Below, one piece after another: positions 51-18,018 of a DNA stretch of 64,000 nt (positions are counted from its first letter, which is position 1; every line of letters begins with the position of its first letter). Source of the stretch: Pseudoxanthomonas beigongshangi. Lineage in GTDB: Bacteria; Pseudomonadota; Gammaproteobacteria; Xanthomonadales; Xanthomonadaceae. The stretch covers positions 1 to 64,000 of the forward strand of contig NZ_JADHDV010000020.1 in NCBI RefSeq assembly GCF_016820515.1, written 5' to 3'. Made by a program: the position numbers and the translations under genes. The notes below the pieces were generated by a model that saw only the letters and a program-made list of their open reading frames with translations, searched no databases and had not been told where the DNA came from.

Positions 51-1063
51 GGGCGTTCGCCCCGGCCCACGGCAAGCATCCGCGCCAGCGCGGCGCGCGC
101 GCCGGCGGCCACCTGTTCCGGCACTTCCACCACGTGGCGCAGGTCGCGCAGGCAGGCATGGATGTTCGGCAGGGTGATCCGCTTCATGTGCGGGCACAGG
201 TTGCAGGGCTTGATGAACTCGACATCGGGAAAGCGATAGCGCAGGTTGTCGGCCATCGAGCATTCGGTGATCAGGGCGACGCGGCGCGGACGCTCGCGTT
301 CCAGCCACGCGCCCATCGCGGTGGTCGAACCGACGAAATCGGCCTCGCGCTGCACTTCCGGCGGGCACTCCGGATGCGCGACCAGGCGCGCGTCGAAGGT
401 CTCGCGGGTATGCCGCGCCTGTTGCGCGGTGAACTGCTCGTGCACTTCGCAGCGGCCGTCCCACAGCACCAGTTCAACGCCGGTCTGGGCGGCGACGTGA
501 TGGCCGAGGAAGGCGTCGGGCAGGAAGATGACCTTGTCCGCGCCCATCGCCTCGACCACCTGCACCGCATTGGCGGAGGTGCAGCAGGCATCGGACTCTG
601 CCTTCACCGCCGCACTGGTATTGACGTAGCTGACCACCGGCGCACCGGGATGGCGCGCGCGCAGGGCGCGCACGTCGTCGGCGGTGATGGAAGAGGCCAG
701 CGAACAGCCCGCCTCGGGATCCGGAATCAGCACGGTGCGCCGCGGCGCCAGGATCTTCGCGGTCTCGGCCATGAAATGGACGCCGCACAGCACGATGATC
801 TCCGCGTCGCAGTCGGCGGCCGCCTGCGCCAGCGCCAGCGAGTCGCCGGTGACGTCTGCCACGCCATGGAAGATCTCCGGCGACTGGTAGCTGTGCGCCA
901 TGATCACCGCGCCGCGTTCACGCTTGAGTTCGCGGATGGCATCGATCCAGGGCAGGTGCAGCGGCCACTCCAGGCACGGCACGGTATCGCCCACGCGCGC
1001 GGTCAGATCCGCGTAGCGATCTTCCAGGTCCGGCGTCCAGCGCGGCGCATGCGTGGCGTTCAT
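47..1063 (-). CDS. nadA: Quinolinate synthase A
   Basis: This 338-residue cytosolic enzyme makes quinolinate for NAD synthesis from iminoaspartate and dihydroxyacetone phosphate, using one 4Fe-4S cluster. The sequence has the NadA signatures AHSYQSPEI near residue 56, C93 in LCGVHFMAE, C233 in the HPEC motif and C287/C290 in PCNLCPHMK, the usual cluster ligands. Length matches the family. The ATG at 1063 is chosen because it overlaps the stop of the upstream ubiT-type gene (ATGA), which implies translational coupling, and because longer in-frame starts run antisense-like through that gene. It forms a leftward operon ubiT-nadA-nadB. Placing an oxygen-sensitive Fe-S enzyme behind an FNR-type promoter fits anaerobic expression. 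Confidence 0.93.
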   Translation of the reverse strand: MNATHAPRWTPDLEDRYADLTARVGDTVPCLEWPLHLPWIDAIRELKRERGAVIMAHSYQSPEIFHGVADVTGDSLALAQAAADCDAEIIVLCGVHFMAETAKILAPRRTVLIPDPEAGCSLASSITADDVRALRARHPGAPVVSYVNTSAAVKAESDACCTSANAVQVVEAMGADKVIFLPDAFLGHHVAAQTGVELVLWDGRCEVHEQFTAQQARHTRETFDARLVAHPECPPEVQREADFVGSTTAMGAWLERERPRRVALITECSMADNLRYRFPDVEFIKPCNLCPHMKRITLPNIHACLRDLRHVVEVPEQVAAGARAALARMLAVGRGERP

Positions 1064-1905
1064 GCGGCCCGCCCGGCGTGTGCGCGATGGGCCTGCCGCG
1101 CGTCGCGCGCCAGACGCGCGCCGCGTTGCAGGAGGATGCGCGAGGCGAGCGGAAAGGCTTCCCAAGGCAACCGATCCAGCAGGTTGCGCAGGAACAGCCC
1201 GAGTTCGGTGTCGCCGGTCAGCATCAGGCGGCGCTGGAAAAACAGGGTATCGGCGTCCTCCAGCCGGCTCGCCAGCAGCAGCAGATCGGTGGCGCTGCCG
1301 CTCACCGTGGCTTCCGCGTCGCCCTGCGCCAGATGCAGGCCGTCGGCGCGCAATTCGAACACCCAGCGCTGATCGAGATCGGTGATTTCGATGCCGAGTC
1401 GGCGGCCGGCGATCGGCTCCAGGACACGCCGTACCTGCGGAGACGCCAATGCAGGCGCGAGCAGGCGCAACGCCGCGCGTTGGCGCAACGGTCCCGGTAT
1501 CCGCGCGAGCCAGGGCCGCAGGCGGCGTGGCGGTGGCAGCCAGCGAAGCAGGGGGGAAGGTGCGGAAGCGGAACGGGTCGATGACGGACCGGAATGGGCC
1601 ATGGAAAGGGTCGGTTCGGAAAGGGGGGAAGAAGCCCGCGACTGGCGGCGATGGGCTTCTGCGATCAGCAGCCGCATCAGTCGTTCGGCGCTGGACGGAG
1701 AAATGCCGGCGCGGCTTGCGAGCCGGCGCGCGCGTTCCCGGACCCGGTGCTCGCGTCGCGCGTCGGTCTGCGCCAGGCCCGCGTCGCGCTTGATCCGGCC
1801 GGCCAGTCCGGCCAGCCGCTGGCGTCCGCCCAGCAGGATCACCATCGCGTCGTCGACCCGGTCGATCGCCGCGCGGGTGCCGCCCAGGGCCAGGCGGCTC
1901 AGCAC
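1060..1905 (-). CDS. ubiT: AroQ chorismate mutase domain fused to UbiT (SCP2) ubiquinone factor
   Basis: The 281-residue protein has two domains. Residues 8-88 match AroQ-class chorismate mutase and keep R11, R28, K39, D48, R51, E52 and Q88, the active-site set of the E. coli PheA mutase at identical numbering. Residues about 135-245 are an SCP2 lipid-binding domain of the UbiT kind: DADTLFFQRRLMLTGDTELG is nearly the same as the E. coli UbiT core. UbiT is an accessory factor for O2-independent ubiquinone synthesis (with UbiU/UbiV, not in this window). A Ser/Pro-rich linker (about 89-120) separates the domains. The GTG start at 1905 has GGAGG nine bases upstream. It overlaps nadA by four bases and is preceded by an FNR promoter. 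The fusion is seen directly; its combined function is unknown. Confidence 0.85.
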   Translation of the reverse strand: MLSRLALGGTRAAIDRVDDAMVILLGGRQRLAGLAGRIKRDAGLAQTDARREHRVRERARRLASRAGISPSSAERLMRLLIAEAHRRQSRASSPLSEPTLSMAHSGPSSTRSASAPSPLLRWLPPPRRLRPWLARIPGPLRQRAALRLLAPALASPQVRRVLEPIAGRRLGIEITDLDQRWVFELRADGLHLAQGDAEATVSGSATDLLLLASRLEDADTLFFQRRLMLTGDTELGLFLRNLLDRLPWEAFPLASRILLQRGARLARDARQAHRAHAGRAA

Positions 1906-2014: not shown

Positions 2015-2063
2015 TGGGCACATCCTAGGCAGCGCCGGGCGGGCTGCCATTGACCCAGATCAA
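2015..2063 (-). promoter_or_regulatory. FNR-type promoter of ubiT-nadA-nadB
   Basis: The FNR box TTGACCCAGATCAA occupies 2050-2063. On the minus strand a -10 element TAGGAT lies at 2027-2022, which puts the predicted start near 2015 with the box centred at -41.5, the class II position. The leader to the ubiT GTG is about 110 bases. The box overlaps the end of the upstream membrane-protein gene, so this operon can be read independently of the nnrS operon. Confidence 0.7.
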
Positions 2064-3298
2064 GCGGGCCGGAAGCGCAGCGCTCCGCGCCAGCAGCGCA
2101 GGATCACCCCTCCGCTGGCGCCCCACGCGAGCACCAGCGCGGCGCCGGCCGGCCGCGCCAGCGCGGGATCCACGGTCGCCGCCAGCAGCAGCCCGCCCGC
2201 CGCCAGGTGCGCGTACAGCAGCCACTGCTTGTGGGTGTCTTCGAGCAGCCGGTCCACACCCGGCACGCGCACGCCGCGCGGGTGGCGCCGCCGCAGTTCG
2301 ATCCAGGCCAGGAAACCGACGATTTCCAGCAGCATGCCCAGCACCAGCAGCGGAAGGCCGACGGCGACCACCAGCGCGCCGATCGCCAGCATGGCGCGCG
2401 GGGACAGCTCCGGCGCCAGGGTGGCGAGGCAAGCCGTCGCCAGCGCGGTACAGCCGGCCAGCCAGAACCGGCGCAGCACCGGATTGCGCGGATGCGGCGC
2501 ACGCCATTGCAGGACCGGAACCGCCAGGCAGAACACCAGCGCGGGCAGGGCGAGGACGCGCGCCGGATGAATGGGCACATCGGCCAGCGCGCGCCAACCC
2601 GCCGCGCCGAGGCCGGCGACCAGCACGCCCAGCCAGATCAGCAGCCAGCCGGCGGGAATGCGCCGCGTTCCCTGCAGCATCGGCAGGGTGATGCTGGCGA
2701 CCGCGCCGAGCAGCGCTAGCGTCCAACCCGCGAGTCCGAACGCGGCGTGCAGGTTGGCGATTCGATCCAGCGGAAGCGCGATCCTGCCCGACAGGATCGC
2801 CAGCCCCGCCAGCCCGAGCGAAGCGGTGGCCAGCAGCGACGCCAGCGCGACGCCGATGCCGAACCGCGCCGCGCGCGCGCCGGTTCCGCGCGCCACCGCG
2901 ATCAGGCCGCCGAGTGCGAACAGCAGCAGCGATGGCGCCAGCAACAGCGAGGCCGCGCCGGTGAGCAGCGGGTGCGGAAACATCAGCGCCGGCACCAGCA
3001 GGAGCAGTCCGCCATTGAATGCCGCATGCAACCATGGCGCGAGTCCGGGGCGGGGCAATGGACTGCCGGCGGCGACCGGCAGGAACTGGATCAGGCTGCC
3101 GAGCATCGCGTTGCCGAGCACGCCCAGGGTAAACAGGTGCACCAGCACCAGCGTGTGCGGCGCCCAGCGCGTCAGCAGCGCGAATTCACCGCTCCACAGC
3201 AGCCATGCGCCGGCGGCGACGCCCCAGGCCAAAGACGACAGCAGGAAGCGCAGCGGTTGCCCGGGCGGCGGTGCCTGGGCGAACGCCAGTCCGCTCAT
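2060..3298 (-). CDS. NnrS-like polytopic membrane protein
   Basis: A 412-residue, very hydrophobic protein with about twelve predicted membrane helices. Conserved-looking histidines lie in helices (LVLVHLFTLGVLGNAMLG near residue 52, NLHAAFGLAGW near 183), as in NnrS and haem-copper-related membrane proteins of denitrification clusters. Its start overlaps the stop of the DUF2249 gene (ATGA), making it the last gene of the nnrS-SirB-Cys-DUF2249 operon. A role in NO tolerance or in haem/copper handling during NO respiration is inferred from context only. It is clearly divergent from the NnrS at 4088-5332, so it may be a separate family. Confidence 0.7.
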   Translation of the reverse strand: MSGLAFAQAPPPGQPLRFLLSSLAWGVAAGAWLLWSGEFALLTRWAPHTLVLVHLFTLGVLGNAMLGSLIQFLPVAAGSPLPRPGLAPWLHAAFNGGLLLLVPALMFPHPLLTGAASLLLAPSLLLFALGGLIAVARGTGARAARFGIGVALASLLATASLGLAGLAILSGRIALPLDRIANLHAAFGLAGWTLALLGAVASITLPMLQGTRRIPAGWLLIWLGVLVAGLGAAGWRALADVPIHPARVLALPALVFCLAVPVLQWRAPHPRNPVLRRFWLAGCTALATACLATLAPELSPRAMLAIGALVVAVGLPLLVLGMLLEIVGFLAWIELRRRHPRGVRVPGVDRLLEDTHKQWLLYAHLAAGGLLLAATVDPALARPAGAALVLAWGASGGVILRCWRGALRFRPA

Positions 3299-4087: not shown

Positions 4088-5332
4088 TCAGCCCGGCCGG
4101 CCGTCGGCGCGCGGACTCAGGTAGATGCGGCCGATGCGGACCACCCACGGCAGCAGCGCGAGCAGCCAGCCGATCGCCGAGGCGACCTGCCAGAACAGCG
4201 CGTCGGGGGCGACTTCGGCGACCACCCGCATCACCGCCACGATTTGCAGTGCGGCAAACGCGAACCAGGCCAGCGCCGGCATCTTCAACGGCCGCCCGGA
4301 ATGCCCCTGGGTGACCCGGGTGACCATCGCCACCAATACGCTGCCGAAGAAACCGATGAACATCGCGTGCATCGGCGCGCGCCCCAGCACGAATTCACCC
4401 GTGAGCAGGTAGATGACGCTCTGCGCGGTGTACAGCGCGAAGGTGATCGGCAACCACGCGGTACCGACGAACAGCACCGCCAGCAGGCCCGGCATCCGTC
4501 CGCGTGGCCACCAGTGCCACAGCGCCACGCCGCTGGCGATCAGCAGCGCCGCATCCGGCAGCCACAGCCACGCGTAGGCGTGCCGCAGCTCCAGCAGCAG
4601 GTGAAGCAGCAGGAAGCCCCACATCGCGCCCAGCCACGCCATGGGCCGCCAGGGCTTGTAGCCCGGCACCGTATTGGCGGCGAAGAACGGGAACATGCGG
4701 TGGGCGACGGTCAGGTAGATCGGCAGCAGCATCGCCACCCCGCCGAGCTTGATGCTGGCGAAGGCATACCACCCATCCCCGGTCAGCACGAACACCAGGA
4801 AGCACGCCAGTCCCGCGCAGCCGAGCAGCAGCGCGGCGAAGCAGGAACGCGCGTGCCAGGTGCGCGCGGTGTCGCGCAGCAGCAGCCGGCCGAGCGTGGC
4901 CACGCCGGCCAGCCAGCCGGCCAGCGCCATCCACAGGCCGACCGTGAAACCGGCGTCCCAGCCCAGCGTGGAAAGCAGGATCGCCAGTTGTCCGCCCATC
5001 AGTCCGGCGCCCACCGGCACGTAGCGCCAGCGCGGCAGATCCGGCAAGCCCATCCAGCGCGGGAATACCGTCAGCAGGAAACCGAAGATGAAACTCGGCA
5101 GCACCAGGTACTGCATCAGGAAGGCATGCAGCCAACCGGGCGGTACCGCGATGTCCGGCATGCGCCAGGCGCCGGTGTACTGCGCGGCCAGCCAGGCCGT
5201 CCACCACAGCATCGCCAGCAGCACGTTGCCGGCGCCGATGAAGAACATCAGCCGGTGCGGTGCCTGCAGCAACTGGCGCGCGGACATGCCACGCGGGGTC
5301 GGGGGGCGGGTGGAAACGGGAATCGGTCGCAT
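4088..5332 (-). CDS. nnrS: NnrS nitric-oxide-stress haem/copper membrane protein
   Basis: A 414-residue protein with about twelve membrane helices. NnrS proteins protect cells against NO and are co-regulated with NO reductase. Family features are the APHRLMFFIGAG opening, the WLHAFLMQYLVLPSFIFG helix, AHRMFPFFAANT near residue 210, PMHAMFIGFFGS and the TRVTQGHSGR loop, with the expected histidines. It leads the leftward operon nnrS-sirB-Cys-DUF2249-NnrS-like. The ATG at 5332 is exactly where the FNR promoter upstream would start transcription, so either this start is leaderless or the true start is the in-frame ATG at 5287. Homologues usually begin near the APHR motif, which the shorter start also keeps. 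Confidence 0.9.
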   Translation of the reverse strand: MRPIPVSTRPPTPRGMSARQLLQAPHRLMFFIGAGNVLLAMLWWTAWLAAQYTGAWRMPDIAVPPGWLHAFLMQYLVLPSFIFGFLLTVFPRWMGLPDLPRWRYVPVGAGLMGGQLAILLSTLGWDAGFTVGLWMALAGWLAGVATLGRLLLRDTARTWHARSCFAALLLGCAGLACFLVFVLTGDGWYAFASIKLGGVAMLLPIYLTVAHRMFPFFAANTVPGYKPWRPMAWLGAMWGFLLLHLLLELRHAYAWLWLPDAALLIASGVALWHWWPRGRMPGLLAVLFVGTAWLPITFALYTAQSVIYLLTGEFVLGRAPMHAMFIGFFGSVLVAMVTRVTQGHSGRPLKMPALAWFAFAALQIVAVMRVVAEVAPDALFWQVASAIGWLLALLPWVVRIGRIYLSPRADGRPG

Positions 5333-5366
5333 GGGCAAAGTCTGCGCCGCTCCGCCGGGGCCTTCC

Positions 5367-5380
5367 TTGACCTGGATCAG
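5367..5380 (-). promoter_or_regulatory. FNR box upstream of nnrS
   Basis: TTGACCTGGATCAG matches the FNR palindrome in eight of ten half-site positions (TTGAT-N4-ATCAA). Its centre is 41.5 bases from the ATG at 5332. A weak -10 (CAGACT on the minus strand, 5344-5339) sits at the class II spacing seen at the other boxes of this island. Confidence 0.65.
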
Positions 5381-5442
5381 GCGGGATACGGATCGGTGCC
5401 GGGAGGATTCCCGCCCGCGTCGCATCTGCCGATGCCCCACCT

Positions 5443-5538
5443 CGTCATCCCAGCGAACGCGGGGACCCGTTTTGACTTCCGGCCAGCGTTCCTCGGCATC
5501 CAGGATCCCAAGTGATTCCAGCTTGCGCTGGAATGACG
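5443..5538. repeat. Dispersed inverted-repeat element, copy 1
   Basis: A unit of about 96 bases starting CGTCATCCCAGCGAACGC and ending CTTGCGCTGGAATGACG, so the ends are inverted repeats. The second copy at 5573-5668 is about 90% identical, and a decayed relative is at 45379-45467. This type of GTCATyCC...GGAATGAC element is scattered between genes in Xanthomonadaceae. It lies in a gene-free stretch (5333-5892). Confidence 0.75.
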
Positions 5539-5572
5539 GTCGAAAGGGCTGGGTGATGAAGGGAACCCGCAT

Positions 5573-5668
5573 CGTCATCCCAGCGAACGCTGGGACCCAT
5601 TTTTACTTTCGGCCAGCGTTCCTCGGCGTCCAAGGATCCCAATGGATTCCAGCTCGCGCTGGAATGAG
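5573..5668. repeat. Dispersed inverted-repeat element, copy 2
   Basis: A second unit in the same orientation as copy 1, separated from it by about 34 bases. It keeps CGTCATCCCAGCGAACGC at the left and CGCGCTGGAATGA at the right. Differences from copy 1 are scattered single bases plus one-base gaps, as expected for an older tandem duplication or two independent insertions. Confidence 0.75.
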
Positions 5669-5786: not shown

Positions 5787-5892
5787 TATCCGGACGACCA
5801 CTTGATGCGGGTCAATGCCGGCGCCACCGGAGCTGCTTACCTTGCCCGGCACCGGGGCGATGGCCCCGGCCCACACTCAGCAAGGAAACCCG

Positions 5893-6251: not shown

Positions 6252-8525
6252 TCAGCCCTCCGCCGGCACCACCGCCGGCAGTGCTTCCCGGCGCGGCGCC
6301 ACCCACAGGCGGAACACGAACCAGGCCAGGGCGAACGCGCCGACGCTGAACAGCGTGTCCGAGGGAACCCGCATCCACACCAGCATGTCGACGATCGGCT
6401 GCTGCATGAACTCGGCCGAGCGGGCGTACCAGTAGCCGTGCTTCAGCGCGGCGTTGAGCTGGAGGATGCCCAGCGGCAGCAGGGTGAACAGGGCCATGCC
6501 GGCCAGGCCAATGTTGAGCGACCAGAACGCGGTCTTCAGCAGCCTTTCGTTCCACTGCACGTCCGGCTTCAGGCCACGCAGGCAGAACAGCATCAGGCCG
6601 ATGCCGAGCATGCCGTACACGCCGAACAGCGCGGTGTGGCCGTGGGTCGGGGTCAGGTTCAGGCCCTGCATGTAATACAGCGGCAGCGGCGGGTTGATCA
6701 GGAAGCCGAACAGGCCGGCACCCACCAGGTTCCAGAACGCGACCGCGATGAAGAACAGGATCGGCCAGCGGTAGCGTTGCATCCACGGCGTCGCCTTGCC
6801 CATCTTGTAGCTGTGGTAGGCCTCGAAGCCGACGTACGCCAGCGGCACCACTTCCAGCGCCGAGAAGCTCGCGCCGATGGCGATGACCGCGGTCGGGGTG
6901 CCGGTGAAGTACAGGTGGTGCAGGGTGCCCAGCACGCCGCCGGCCATGAACACGATGGTCGCGAACAGCACCGCCACCGTGGCCGACTTGACCTGCAGCA
7001 TGCCCAGGCGGGTGAACAGGAAGGCGATGACCGCCACCGCGAAGACCTCGAAGAAGCCTTCCACCCACAGGTGCACCACCCACCAGCGCCAGTACTCGAC
7101 CATCGACAGGTGCGTGTGCTCGCCCCACATCAGGCCGGCCGCGTAGAACAGGCCGATGGCCACGGTGGACAGGAACAGCAGGGAGACGATGGAACGCGAG
7201 TCGCCGCCGTTGCGCATCGCCGGCCACAGGGCGCGGCCGACCAGCACCAGCCACAGGGTCAGGCCGATGAACAGGAACCACTGCCAGAAGCGGCCGAGGT
7301 CGACGTATTCCCAGCCCTGGTGGCCGAACCAGAAGTTGTGCTTCAGGCCGAGCTTCTGCATCACCGCGAACCACTGCCCGGCGAACGCGCCGACCACGAT
7401 GATCAGCAGGCAGACCCACAGCAGGTTCACGCCCAGGCGCTGGAACTTCGGCTCGTGCCCGGATATCGCCGGGCCGATGTAAAGGCCCATGCCCAGCCAG
7501 GCCGTGGCGATCCACAGTACCGCCAGTTGCGTGTGCCAGGTTCTGGTCAGCGCGTACGGCAACACGTCGGCCAGGGCGAAGCCGTAGGCTTCCTGGCCCT
7601 CCACCTGGTAGTGCGCCGTGATCGCGCCGAGCAGGATCTGCACCAGGAACAGCGCGATCACCACCCAGAAATACTTGGCGGTGGCGCGCATCGACGGGGT
7701 GACCTTGATATCGGCCAGCGGATCCCGCTTGGGCAGCACCGGCGCCAGTTCGTCACCGTGGTTGACCGCGTAGTGCCAGCCCAGCAGGCCGATGCCGGCG
7801 ATCAGGAACAGCACGCTGAACACCGTCCACAGGAACGCGCTGGGAGGCGGCGTGTTGCCGACCAGTTCGTCGGCGGGCCAGTTGGCGGTGTAGCTGATCT
7901 CGGCGCCCGGGCGCTGGGTCACCGACGACCACGCGGCCCACCAGTAGAAGCCGGTGAGCTGGCGCCGGTGCTCGGCGTCGGGCACGGTGTCGTTGCGCAT
8001 CGCATAGGCTTCGCGCAGCTTCACCATCGCCGGATCCTTGCCGAACAACTGCTCGTAGTGCGCGGCGACCGTGCGGATGGCGGCGGCGCGGTCGACGTCC
8101 ACGGTCACCGTGCCGGTGGCGGCGTCGTAGCTGTTGGGACGCATCAGCGCCTGCACGCGCTTGGCGTACGCGGCCTGGGTCGGGGCGTCCAGATCCTTGT
8201 AGCTGGCGGCGCCGGCCTCGCGCCTGGCCCAGATGTCGAGGATGGCTTCGGCCTCGCGGTGCAGCCAGTCCGCGCCCCAGTCGGGAGCGACGTAGCCGCC
8301 GTGGCCCCAGATGGAGCCCAGTTGCTGGCCACCGATCGACTGCCAGACCTGGCGGCCGGTCTCGATGTCCTTGCGGGTGTAAAGCACCTGGCCATTGGCG
8401 TCGACCACCTGTTCGGGCAGGGGTGGCGCCTGTCGGTGGACCTCGCTGCCGACCCAGAGCAGGACGGCGAACGAGGCGATGAGCAGGGCGGCCAACCCTA
8501 CCCACAGCTTGCGTGTCGAATTCAT
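6252..8525 (-). CDS. norB: Quinol-dependent nitric oxide reductase (qNor)
   Basis: The 757-residue inner-membrane enzyme reduces 2 NO to N2O with electrons from quinol. It has an N-terminal membrane anchor (residues 6-27), a periplasmic cytochrome-c-like fold without haem motif (about 30-200) as in single-subunit qNor, then a twelve-helix NorB core with TWHTQLAVLWIATAWLG, the HLWVEGFFEVF helix carrying metal-centre glutamate and histidine, GTLHHLYFTGTP, and PTHGHTALFGVYG. The length is that of NorZ rather than of cNor NorB (about 470), and no norC is present. The ATG at 8525 follows a GGAG site. It is a single gene led by an FNR box at 8582-8595 and ended by the hairpin at 6194. Confidence 0.95.
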   Translation of the reverse strand: MNSTRKLWVGLAALLIASFAVLLWVGSEVHRQAPPLPEQVVDANGQVLYTRKDIETGRQVWQSIGGQQLGSIWGHGGYVAPDWGADWLHREAEAILDIWARREAGAASYKDLDAPTQAAYAKRVQALMRPNSYDAATGTVTVDVDRAAAIRTVAAHYEQLFGKDPAMVKLREAYAMRNDTVPDAEHRRQLTGFYWWAAWSSVTQRPGAEISYTANWPADELVGNTPPPSAFLWTVFSVLFLIAGIGLLGWHYAVNHGDELAPVLPKRDPLADIKVTPSMRATAKYFWVVIALFLVQILLGAITAHYQVEGQEAYGFALADVLPYALTRTWHTQLAVLWIATAWLGMGLYIGPAISGHEPKFQRLGVNLLWVCLLIIVVGAFAGQWFAVMQKLGLKHNFWFGHQGWEYVDLGRFWQWFLFIGLTLWLVLVGRALWPAMRNGGDSRSIVSLLFLSTVAIGLFYAAGLMWGEHTHLSMVEYWRWWVVHLWVEGFFEVFAVAVIAFLFTRLGMLQVKSATVAVLFATIVFMAGGVLGTLHHLYFTGTPTAVIAIGASFSALEVVPLAYVGFEAYHSYKMGKATPWMQRYRWPILFFIAVAFWNLVGAGLFGFLINPPLPLYYMQGLNLTPTHGHTALFGVYGMLGIGLMLFCLRGLKPDVQWNERLLKTAFWSLNIGLAGMALFTLLPLGILQLNAALKHGYWYARSAEFMQQPIVDMLVWMRVPSDTLFSVGAFALAWFVFRLWVAPRREALPAVVPAEG

Positions 8526-8581
8526 GATGCGGGACTCCGTGGGAACCGCAGGCATGTTCCGCCCGCGTCCGGATCCCCTCC

Positions 8582-8641: not shown

Positions 8642-9397
8642 TCAGTCGCGCAACACCGTGGATGCCAGTTCGTGCAGGCGATCCATGTCCAGGATCTCCA
8701 CGTCGCGCTGCTTGATGTGGACCAGCCCATCGCGTTCGAACCGGCGCAGCACCCGGCTGACCGTTTCCGGCGCCTGGCGCAGGTAGTTGGCAATGTCGGT
8801 GCGCGACATGGTCAGCTGGAACCGGCGCGAGGAATAGCCGCGCGCGGCCAGCCGCCGCGACAGTCCGATCAGGAACGCCGCCATCCGCTCGTCGGCGCTG
8901 TTGTCACGGGCGAACAGCGAGGCCACGCCGATATCGTGGCTCATCAGCCGGAACAGGTGCTGCTGCAGGTTCGGCAGGCGCGCGGCCAGCAGGGCGATCT
9001 TGGGGAACGAGAACCGGCACAGCATCACCGTGTCCAGCGCGATCGCGTTGCAGGGGTAGCGGTCGCCATGGATCGCGTTGAGGCCGATCACCTCGCCGGG
9101 CAGGTGGAAGCCCAGCACCTGCTCGTGGCCGTCGCGATCGACCTGGTAGGTCTTGACCGTGCCGGCGCGCACCGCGGCGATGGCGCTGAAGGAATCCCCC
9201 TCGCGGAACACGTGCTCGCCCGGCTGCAGCGGGCCGACGTGTTCGACCAGCACGTGCAGGTCCATCAACGCCCGCTTGTCCATGCCCTCGCTGAGGCAGG
9301 CCTGGGAGAACGCGCAGGTCGAGCAGAACGTCAGCGAATCGCCGTCGTCCGAGAGAATGGTGGCGTCGGTACGCGGGAAAACGACCGGCGAGCTCAT
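8642..9397 (-). CDS. fnr: FNR-type oxygen-sensing transcription regulator
   Basis: A 251-residue CRP/FNR-family activator. Cysteines C25, C28 and C34 (C-x2-C-x5-C) plus C116 in YPCNAI match the 4Fe-4S ligand pattern of E. coli FNR, so it should sense O2 directly, unlike the cluster-less Dnr type. A cyclic-nucleotide-like beta barrel follows (about 50-150). The C-terminal helix-turn-helix MSRTDIANYLRQAPETVSRV carries the E..SR recognition residues for TTGAT half-sites. The ATG at 9397 is chosen because it keeps the family N-terminus; it lies 19 bases after the hemN stop, so hemN-fnr are co-transcribed. Five matching boxes in this window are its likely targets. Confidence 0.95.
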   Translation of the reverse strand: MSSPVVFPRTDATILSDDGDSLTFCSTCAFSQACLSEGMDKRALMDLHVLVEHVGPLQPGEHVFREGDSFSAIAAVRAGTVKTYQVDRDGHEQVLGFHLPGEVIGLNAIHGDRYPCNAIALDTVMLCRFSFPKIALLAARLPNLQQHLFRLMSHDIGVASLFARDNSADERMAAFLIGLSRRLAARGYSSRRFQLTMSRTDIANYLRQAPETVSRVLRRFERDGLVHIKQRDVEILDMDRLHELASTVLRD

Positions 9398-9416
9398 GCG
9401 GACGTCCCGGATGAGG

Positions 9417-10817
9417 TCAGATGGTTCGCGAGAACCGCGTGGTCGCGGCCTCCGCGGCGGCGGGCAGATATCGGTCGAAGCACATGGCGATGATACGCAA
9501 CAGCAGGCGTCCACGCGAGGTGGCGCACACTTCCCGCGCCCCCAGCTGGACCAGGCCGTCGGCCTGCAGCGGCTCCAGCCGTGCCAGCGCGTCGGCGAAG
9601 TAGTCGCGGAAGTCGATCACGTGGCGGCGCTCGATCGCATCGAAGTCGATGCGGCCGTGGCACATCAGCTGCTGGATGACATCGGCGCGCAGCAGGTCGT
9701 CCTCGTCCAGGCGCATGCCGCGCCACACCGGCAGGCGGCCGCTGTCGATCATCTGTTCCCAACTGCCGATGTCGCGCGGGTTCTGGCTGAAGCTGGCGCC
9801 GACATGGCTGATCGCGCTGACGCCCAGGCCGATTAAATCGCTTTCGGCGTGGGTGGAATAGCCCATGAAGTTGCGGTGCAGGTCGCCGCGCTGCTGCGCC
9901 CGCGCCAGATCGTCCTCGGGCAGGGCGAAGTGATCCATGCCGATGTAGACGTAGCCGGCTTCGCCCAGCTTGTCGATGGCGCAGCGCAGCAAGTCGAGCT
10001 TCTGTTCGGGGGAGGGCAGTTCCTCGGCGTGGATGCGTTGCTGCGGGCGGAACAGGGCCGGCAGGTGCGCGTAACTGTAGATCGCCAGCCGGTCCGGGCG
10101 CGCCTTCAGGGTGATGTCGAGCGTGCGCGAGAAACCTGCGAGGGTCTGCCGGGGCAGGCCGTAGATCAGATCGACATTCACCGAGCGCATGCCGTGGGCG
10201 CGGCAGGCATCGATGATCGCCAGGGTGTCGTCGACCCCCTGCACCCGGTTGACCGCCTGCTGCACATCGGGATCGAAGTCCTGCACGCCCAGGCTGGCGC
10301 GGTTGAAGCCGGCGCGGGCCAGCTGGCCCACCTCGTCCGGGCTGATGAAGCGCGGATCCAGTTCAATCGAGCAGTCGAAACCGGCACCGGAGGCGAACGA
10401 GAAGTGCCGGCGCAGCACATCGACGACCTCGGCGATCTGGTCCGGCGACAGGAAGTTGGGCGTGCCACCGCCGAAGTGCACCTGGTTGACGTCGCGGTCG
10501 CGGTCGAACAGCGGCGAGACCAGCGCGATCTCGCGGTACAGGCGGGTCAAGTAGGCGTCGCCGCGGGCCTTCTCCCGGGTGATGATGCGGTTGCAGCCGC
10601 AATAGAAGCAGGGGCTGGTGCAGAACGGGATATGCAGGTACAGCGACAGCGGGCGCGGGATCGGGTCGCCGTTGGTGATCGCGGCCATCTCGCGCAGTTC
10701 CGCCTCCTGGAACTGCGCCGAGAACTGCGGCGCGGTCGGGTAGGAGGTGTAGCGCGGCCCCGGCTTGTCGTAACGCCGGAGCAGTTCGGGGTCGAAGAGG
10801 GCGGAAAGGGCGGCCAT
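9417..10817 (-). CDS. hemN: Oxygen-independent coproporphyrinogen III dehydrogenase
   Basis: A 466-residue cytosolic radical SAM enzyme that decarboxylates coproporphyrinogen III to protoporphyrinogen IX without O2, supplying haem for the anaerobic chain. It shows the opening YDKPGPRYTSYPTAPQF typical of true HemN, the radical SAM cysteines in HIPFCTSPCFYCGCNR (CxxxCxxC), GGGTPNFLS, and SLGVQDFDPDVQQAVNR. The ATG at 10817 fits the family length; a TTG six bases earlier is possible. There is no Shine-Dalgarno sequence before the ATG, and the FNR promoter predicts transcription starting at that base, so the message may be leaderless. fnr follows in the same operon. Confidence 0.95.
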   Translation of the reverse strand: MAALSALFDPELLRRYDKPGPRYTSYPTAPQFSAQFQEAELREMAAITNGDPIPRPLSLYLHIPFCTSPCFYCGCNRIITREKARGDAYLTRLYREIALVSPLFDRDRDVNQVHFGGGTPNFLSPDQIAEVVDVLRRHFSFASGAGFDCSIELDPRFISPDEVGQLARAGFNRASLGVQDFDPDVQQAVNRVQGVDDTLAIIDACRAHGMRSVNVDLIYGLPRQTLAGFSRTLDITLKARPDRLAIYSYAHLPALFRPQQRIHAEELPSPEQKLDLLRCAIDKLGEAGYVYIGMDHFALPEDDLARAQQRGDLHRNFMGYSTHAESDLIGLGVSAISHVGASFSQNPRDIGSWEQMIDSGRLPVWRGMRLDEDDLLRADVIQQLMCHGRIDFDAIERRHVIDFRDYFADALARLEPLQADGLVQLGAREVCATSRGRLLLRIIAMCFDRYLPAAAEAATTRFSRTI

Positions 10818-10821
10818 GGAC

Positions 10822-10865
10822 AAAGGCTAGGCAATGCCGGCCCCGGGCGCCTTGACCTGAATCAA
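10822..10865 (-). promoter_or_regulatory. FNR promoter between hemN and moeA
   Basis: The near-perfect box TTGACCTGAATCAA is at 10852-10865. On the minus strand a -10 TAGCCT (10829-10824) sits at class II spacing and predicts a start at 10817, the hemN ATG itself. The box also lies about 135 bases before moeA, so a role on that side is possible but has no matching -10 that I can see. Confidence 0.75.
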
Positions 10866-17969: not shown

Positions 17970-18018
17970 CTGCGGGCAGGTTAGCGCGCTGGCGGTTGGC
18001 GGCATTGACCTGAATCAA
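17970..18018 (-). promoter_or_regulatory. FNR promoter of the 49-residue membrane protein gene
   Basis: The FNR box TTGACCTGAATCAA at 18005-18018 is identical in sequence to that of hemN. The minus-strand -10 TAACCT is at class II spacing. The box is also 86 bases before the rightward gene at 18105, so shared control of the divergent pair is possible. Confidence 0.75.

Follow-up and report, generated by a model that had tools for sequence, protein, structure and literature searches.

Positions 1060–1905 of the window (the whole 64,000-nucleotide stretch of Pseudoxanthomonas beigongshangi DNA analysed here) encode one protein, in which an AroQ chorismate mutase domain is followed by UbiT. The fusion is likely to serve O2-independent ubiquinone synthesis as a bifunctional accessory factor whose mutase domain supplies prephenate to UbiU-UbiV. 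It probably exists because prephenate, the product of the mutase, is the reported oxygen source for this pathway. Judging from sequence, we infer that the AroQ domain is an active mutase whose product feeds UbiUV.

Domain architecture and genomic setting

The fusion is read on the minus strand as a single uninterrupted open reading frame, from a GTG at 1905 to a TGA at 1060 (Table 1). In Pfam, the protein matches CM_2 at residues 11–88 (E = 2e-13; 50.8 bits against a cut-off of 27) and SCP2 at residues 155–244 (E = 1.7e-16, above cut-off). Moreover, the NCBIfam UbiT equivalog NF047962 is matched at E = 1.7e-32 (112.3 bits against a cut-off of 46.9). With one frame and all three models above their cut-offs, the sequence-only reading of an intact-looking AroQ domain fused to UbiT is borne out, including its statement that the C-terminal half is clearly UbiT. 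Only CM_2 and SCP2 reach Pfam cut-offs; prephenate dehydratase, prephenate dehydrogenase and ACT gave no match in the fusion. The closest NCBIfam chorismate mutase model for the AroQ part is the monofunctional mutase PRK09239, which is matched below its cut-off. A recent duplication of the genome's own PheA mutase is not favoured, since the fusion matches the PheA-type model CM_P2 at E = 0.015 and PRK09239 at 3e-16; the own PheA matches CM_P2 at 4e-24.

Table 1. Coordinates of the fusion gene, its parts and neighbouring features in the window
Feature	Position	Strand	Basis or remark
Chorismate mutase-UbiT fusion gene	1060–1905	minus	281 aa, GTG start, GGAGG 7 nt upstream; ORF and domain matches
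AroQ (CM_2) domain	1642–1875	minus	R11, R28, K39, D48, R51, E52, Q88; three-helix fold matching 1ecm
Variable linker, about residues 89–118	1552–1641	minus	12% mean identity over residues 91–117
UbiT part (SCP2 lipid-binding domain)	1060–1551	minus	NF047962 above cut-off; UbiJ-SCP2 chains top PDB fold matches
nadA	47–1063	minus	NadA family; start overlaps the fusion's stop by 4 nt (ATGA, 1063–1060)
FNR-like palindrome TTGACCCAGATCAA	2050–2063		About 150 nt upstream of the fusion start codon
NnrS (nitric oxide/denitrification context)	4088–5578	minus	Upstream of the fusion
NorB-type nitric oxide reductase (context)	6252–8555	minus	Upstream of the fusion
Crp/FNR-family regulator, possible controller (context)	8642–9514	minus	Upstream of the fusion

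A monomer was predicted with AlphaFold, using the window protein together with 76 of its 80 named homologues (four near-duplicates were left out). The model has a mean pLDDT of 87.4 and consists of N-terminal helices at residues 2–42, 49–66 and 70–90, a low-confidence linker at 98–106 and an SCP2-like part. In Foldseek comparisons of this predicted model, the AroQ half fits 1ecm, the E. coli chorismate mutase (E = 0.012–0.018; rmsd 1.0–1.1 Å over 83 columns; TM 0.83–0.87 on the target), so that the model shows the three-helix AroQ fold. The UbiT half finds its top PDB fold matches among UbiJ-SCP2 chains, with a best E of 4e-6. An assembly artefact is ruled out by the same frame in other assemblies, including a 93%-identical fusion in the closest relative (G036). 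Likewise, two overlapping genes are ruled out by the one open frame in all of the best 80 of 289 named loci.

The gene had also been placed under an FNR promoter and next to nadAB. An FNR-like box is indeed present upstream of the fusion as a predicted site, and FNR control of ubiTUV is known from published papers. Four FNR-like boxes occur in the window against 0.05 expected in shuffled sequence. The further palindromes are at 5802–5815, 10852–10865 and 18005–18018, the last two having the same sequence. Among the best 80 of 289 named fusion loci, TTGAN6TCAA is found no more than 420 nt upstream in 13 and is absent from that interval in 67; the background rate is 0.042 per 450 nt. Directly upstream, and on the strand of the fusion, lies a 412-aa membrane-protein-like ORF (2060–3298) for which Pfam gave no match at E 0.001.

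As for nadAB, the adjacency stands for nadA, and nadB lies outside the window, which starts at a contig end. In G036, an L-aspartate-oxidase-like gene (nadB), whose best NCBIfam matches are below their cut-offs, adjoins nadA. There the gene order is ubiD-ubiU-ubiV rightwards, then nadB, nadA and the fusion leftwards, and ubiV is 2.6 kb from the fusion. The ubiU and ubiV genes of P. beigongshangi itself (products 57% and 47% identical to E. coli UbiU and UbiV, respectively) are located near the end of another contig, C35. In G036, the sequence corresponding to the end of C35 stops at base 5827 and the sequence corresponding to the window begins at base 5829, which makes it very likely that the two contigs are neighbours.

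Catalytic residues, constraint and the linker

R11, R28, K39, R51, E52 and Q88 are taken here to be the catalytic residues of AroQ chorismate mutase. Aligned with E. coli PheA, the window protein has R, R, K, D, R and E at positions 11, 28, 39, 48, 51 and 52, Ala at 84 and Gln at 88, exactly as described earlier from the sequence, the replacement of Ser84 by Ala included. These residues, whose loss in close relatives bearing the fusion had been named as refuting evidence, are nearly always kept. R11, R28, K39, R51 and E52 are invariant in all 80 distinct fusions, Q88 is kept in 79 (His in one) and D48 in 75 (Asn in five). At position 84, 73 fusions have Ala, six have Gly and one has Ser. D48 is not essential to the AroQ family, because the accepted mutase TyrA of E. 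coli has Val48 (together with Ser84 and Glu88) and the genome's own PheA has Arg48. Furthermore, the seven catalytic columns all fall within the 11 most conserved of 83 columns, and in a permutation of column ranks over 81 rows none of 100000 random sets was as conserved.

Mean identity to the window protein is 46% for the mutase part, 12% for the linker and 60% for UbiT. Against G036, dN/dS is 0.03 for the mutase part, 0.12 for UbiT and 0.55 for the linker. Against G012 the respective values are 0.23, 0.19 and 0.51, and in this comparison the constraint on the mutase is not above that on UbiT.

An in-frame ATG, a candidate internal start of translation, stands in the linker of 74 of 81 fusions, against about 32 predicted by Met usage elsewhere, and 80 fusions hold 135 linker ATGs in frame against 46 in the two other frames together, all counts that shared ancestry inflates. 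The codon is most often placed 12–14 residues before an LLxLLPPP motif; in the window it is Met102 at 1600–1602, near the starts of unfused UbiT proteins. Upstream of the linker ATGs, the anti-Shine-Dalgarno energy (-2.33) does not improve on that of control codons (-2.29); it reaches -5.42 at the best candidate near the start of the mutase.

Distribution, history and unfused relatives

All of the best 80 of 289 named loci carry chorismate mutase and UbiT in one frame; these loci were ranked by similarity to the fusion, which favours fused proteins and is uninformative on the frequency of unfused ones. They come from 79 records, partly repeating genomes of the 81- and 397-genome samples described below, and belong mostly to Pseudoxanthomonas, Stenotrophomonas, Xanthomonas, Lysobacter, Thermomonas, Arenimonas, Luteimonas, Dyella, Rhodanobacter, Frateuria and unplaced MAGs. 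UbiU or UbiV is encoded within about 3 kb in 40 of these best 80 loci. The single complete genome record of Dyella jiangningensis (CP007444; L076 and L077) encodes identical fusion proteins at two places. A fusion of the Lysobacterales type also appears under an alphaproteobacterial label in the MAG 'Erythrobacter sp. 34-65-8' (L091), probably as a wrongly binned contig.

The counts in the following samples were made by eye from tables. In the order, class and phylum samples, up to six candidates per genome were scored, so that adjacent AroQ-like genes may be missed. The full-length fusion was counted by hand, among the matches listed, in 58 of 397 genomes of the order, and a homologue search for the same fusion, as suggested with the sequence-only reading, is thus positive in both the named loci and the order. 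Seven of the 58 full-length matches carry a flag for a single TGA; in G047, the one examined, this TGA is the stop codon of the gene itself. At least 38 matches in the order cover UbiT alone, the weakest of which may be other SCP2 proteins. By family, and again among the matches listed, fused and unfused proteins number 22 and 0 in f1, 31 and 4 in f12, 4 and 0 in f3, and 1 and 0 in f2. No fusion was seen outside the order in the class (369 genomes) and phylum (398 genomes) samples, where the fused matches seen are the same three genomes of the own family. Seven pattern matches in viral contigs included no relative.

Among P. beigongshangi and 80 relatives, the intact fusion is present in 13 of 81 genomes, and all 13 encode UbiV. 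UbiV is also found in genomes with a separate UbiT (G056, G065, G072, G074, G075), in G002, where mutase and UbiT are split, and in G077, in which the search turned up no UbiT. The weak hits in G005, G055 and G073 are apparently remnants or other proteins. A fusion match is absent from 30 of 38 genomes of the genus.

In a UbiT tree, all 81 fused rows fall in one clade (98/86), which also holds five unfused rows; two named rows with an identical UbiT part were dropped, G002 was left out, two fused rows are short (G069, G356) and long branches were warned of among the outside rows. The unfused G349, G295 and G228 nest among fused Rhodanobacteraceae rows and have probably lost the mutase domain. 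Because of this nesting, one old fusion with later losses is the simplest history.

Some loci illustrate how the two halves have come apart. G002 (L129; 3233–3913 and 11917–12594) has a UbiT without mutase and, about 8 kb away, a separate chorismate mutase gene beside ubiUV. The latter keeps all catalytic residues, and its C-terminal part, without an SCP2 match, by eye resembles nothing but the end of UbiT; this mutase has outlived its UbiT half. In the fusion of G005, a deletion has removed the end of the mutase (positions 84–88) and most of UbiT, UbiV is only a scrap, and the locus looks decayed. In G295, UbiV and UbiT are present and no chorismate mutase was found in the 8 kb read. From these three cases it follows that the mutase in the fusion is favoured but dispensable. 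Genus g23 has mutase domains of the fusion type without UbiT (L127, 3999–4511; L128, 4549–6141); in G328 such a domain lies about 35 kb from ubiT, and in G059 no UbiV was found.

In other families, a small AroQ-like gene adjoins ubiT within the ubiTUV locus in four of the 369 class genomes (G461, G569, G707 and G654). In the family of G461, chosen for searching since G461 already showed the linkage, ubiT is present in 7 of 12 genomes (G461 included), and in all seven an AroQ-like gene is next to it, with ubiV beside. Ten distinct stand-alone AroQ-like proteins keep R11, R28, K39, R51 and E52; at position 88 they have Gly, Val, Ala, Thr or Asp, and none has Gln or Glu. They may be weak mutases, may use another residue or may only bind, so that mutase activity cannot simply be read from linkage to ubiTUV. 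An LRQ[FYH] motif near position 88 occurs in 8 of the 10 distinct AroQ-like proteins beside ubiTUV (L119–L122, L136–L142).

Prephenate supply and competing explanations

The hydroxylations by UbiUV need no O2, and prephenate is put forward as a candidate donor in the discussion of PMC10470549. A review (PMC11574389), with reference to Ferizhendi et al. (PNAS 2024), traces the hydroxyl groups of anaerobic ubiquinone to prephenate; the same review notes that U32 catalysis still awaits direct evidence. TrhP, a U32 sister protein of UbiU/UbiV, requires prephenate in vivo, as described in a part of PMC6599085. UbiT has been proposed, in sections of PMC6747719 and PMC10470549, to bind intermediates and organise the complex like UbiJ. 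The sequence-only reading had found it puzzling that a mutase, which would divert chorismate from ubiquinone, should be joined to UbiT. The pairing does call for an explanation, but the idea of a drain would fall away: with prephenate as the reported oxygen donor (in the passage of PMC11574389), the mutase would make a co-substrate of the pathway.

In the proposed mechanism, the N-terminal AroQ domain would convert chorismate to prephenate, and the C-terminal UbiT domain would bind lipid ubiquinone intermediates and help organise them for UbiU-UbiV. These U32 hydroxylases would then spend prephenate as the oxygen donor for ring hydroxylations. The fusion would place a mutase without ACT, probably induced anaerobically, where prephenate is spent. 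The only other CM_2 match in the genome is PheA, with prephenate dehydratase (PDT) and ACT domains, and PheA enzymes are feedback-inhibited by phenylalanine through ACT. Ubiquinone synthesis would become independent of prephenate from PheA, which is expected to be inhibited by phenylalanine, and the fused protein could work when phenylalanine is plentiful because it has no ACT match. Among the earlier suggestions, channelling fits this reading best, and a direct hand-over may occur; balancing Phe/Tyr with quinone and sensing chorismate are less direct.

Prephenate supply is favoured by the conserved catalytic residues, the low dN/dS of the mutase part against G036, the presence of UbiV in 13 of 13 genomes, the linkage to ubiUV, the AroQ-like genes next to ubiTUV in other families, the FNR-like box, the retained mutase of G002 and a PheA with ACT as the only other CM_2 match. 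Counting against it, at least 38 matches to UbiT alone in the order and the lack of fusions outside the order in the samples indicate that the pathway works without the fusion. Additionally, PheA already makes prephenate, the FNR-like box is found in only 13 of the best 80 of 289 loci, the unfused AroQ-like proteins lack Gln/Glu 88, the mutase domain has probably been lost in G349, G295 and G228, and the constraint on the mutase relative to UbiT is not stronger against G012. A more detailed picture is offered tentatively and is itself rather doubtful: the AroQ domain would make prephenate inside the anaerobic ubiquinone complex and pass it directly to UbiU-UbiV, with the lipid ring presented by UbiT, and the stand-alone AroQ-like proteins without Gln/Glu would be prephenate-binding delivery subunits elsewhere. 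If true, such a delivery subunit would be a new use of the AroQ fold.

AroQ proteins are dimers, and the AroQ-like proteins encoded beside ubiTUV resemble binders in keeping R11, R28, K39, R51 and E52 and not Gln/Glu 88. Both points would suit an AroQ domain that has little or no catalysis and is a dimerisation unit, or a binding or sensing module for chorismate or prephenate tuning UbiT or the complex. This is unlikely, since K39 (80 of 80) and Q88 (79 of 80 distinct fusions) are unneeded for mere dimerisation; a sensor of the same ligand is still compatible with their conservation. The intact active site, the FNR-like box upstream and a genome whose only other chorismate mutase is a PheA with ACT would also be expected of a general anaerobic chorismate mutase, serving Phe/Tyr synthesis or the balance between aromatics and quinone and fused to UbiT for co-regulation only. 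Such a role leaves unexplained why UbiT is the partner, why separate AroQ-like genes lie beside ubiTUV in other families and why UbiV is found in 13 of 13 genomes with the intact fusion, and it is considered highly unlikely.

The statement that ubiquinone begins with UbiC fails for this genome, in which no UbiC-family match was found and an FkbO/Hyg5-type chorismatase is present instead. The AroQ fold includes a lyase, PchB, and with no UbiC match in the genome the fusion might be regarded as an AroQ-fold lyase replacing UbiC in the conversion of chorismate to 4-hydroxybenzoate. That role is extremely improbable, as the isochorismate-lyase equivalog gives 18.1 bits against a cut-off of 126 and the 30 of 38 genus genomes without a fusion match presumably still make ubiquinone. 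In the printed alignment, where PchB matches are weak, PchB has P, V and A opposite D48, R51 and E52. The chorismatase, presumably of the same Pfam family as XanB2, also speaks against a UbiC substitute. In Xanthomonas campestris, 4-hydroxybenzoate is the product of XanB2, a chorismatase that is not related to UbiC (PMC5069965).

The view of prephenate as an organic oxygen donor for anaerobic hydroxylation is recent. An order-wide fusion of a prephenate maker to the proposed organiser of the pathway provides independent genomic support for this donor chemistry and a ready-made protein for studying the supply or channelling of prephenate to UbiU-UbiV. It also suggests AroQ partners of other U32 hydroxylases.

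No paper joining UbiT with chorismate mutase was found in the literature searched, though Ferizhendi et al. (PNAS 2024) may mention the fusion; the main text of PMC11707229 has no occurrence of 'fusion' or 'fused'. Domain fusion of pathway partners is a known kind of arrangement, and the partnership of chorismate mutase with UbiT appears to be new. E. coli UbiT (YhbT) is likewise an SCP2-domain accessory factor of the UbiTUV pathway; unlike the fusion, it has 174 aa and an SCP2 but no CM_2 match. The AroQ domain of E. coli PheA (1ecm) shares fold and catalytic residues with the fusion except for Ser84 to Ala, but its partner is prephenate dehydratase, whereas that of the fusion is UbiT, with no ACT domain. 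AroQ is also joined to a partner of the same pathway in NCBIfam models of fusions with DAHP synthase, PheA and TyrA; there the partners act in the synthesis of aromatic amino acids, and that of the present protein is a quinone factor. TrhP and RlhA, of the UbiU/UbiV family (U32), also need prephenate, as reported in a part of PMC6599085; they act on tRNA and rRNA and, unlike the fusion, receive it from the mutases of PheA/TyrA in trans. The ubiT-ubiU fusion of Zymomonas mobilis, described in a section of PMC6747719, also ties UbiT to the hydroxylase, with the enzyme itself as the partner, whereas the fusion of P. beigongshangi joins UbiT to a supplier of the co-substrate.
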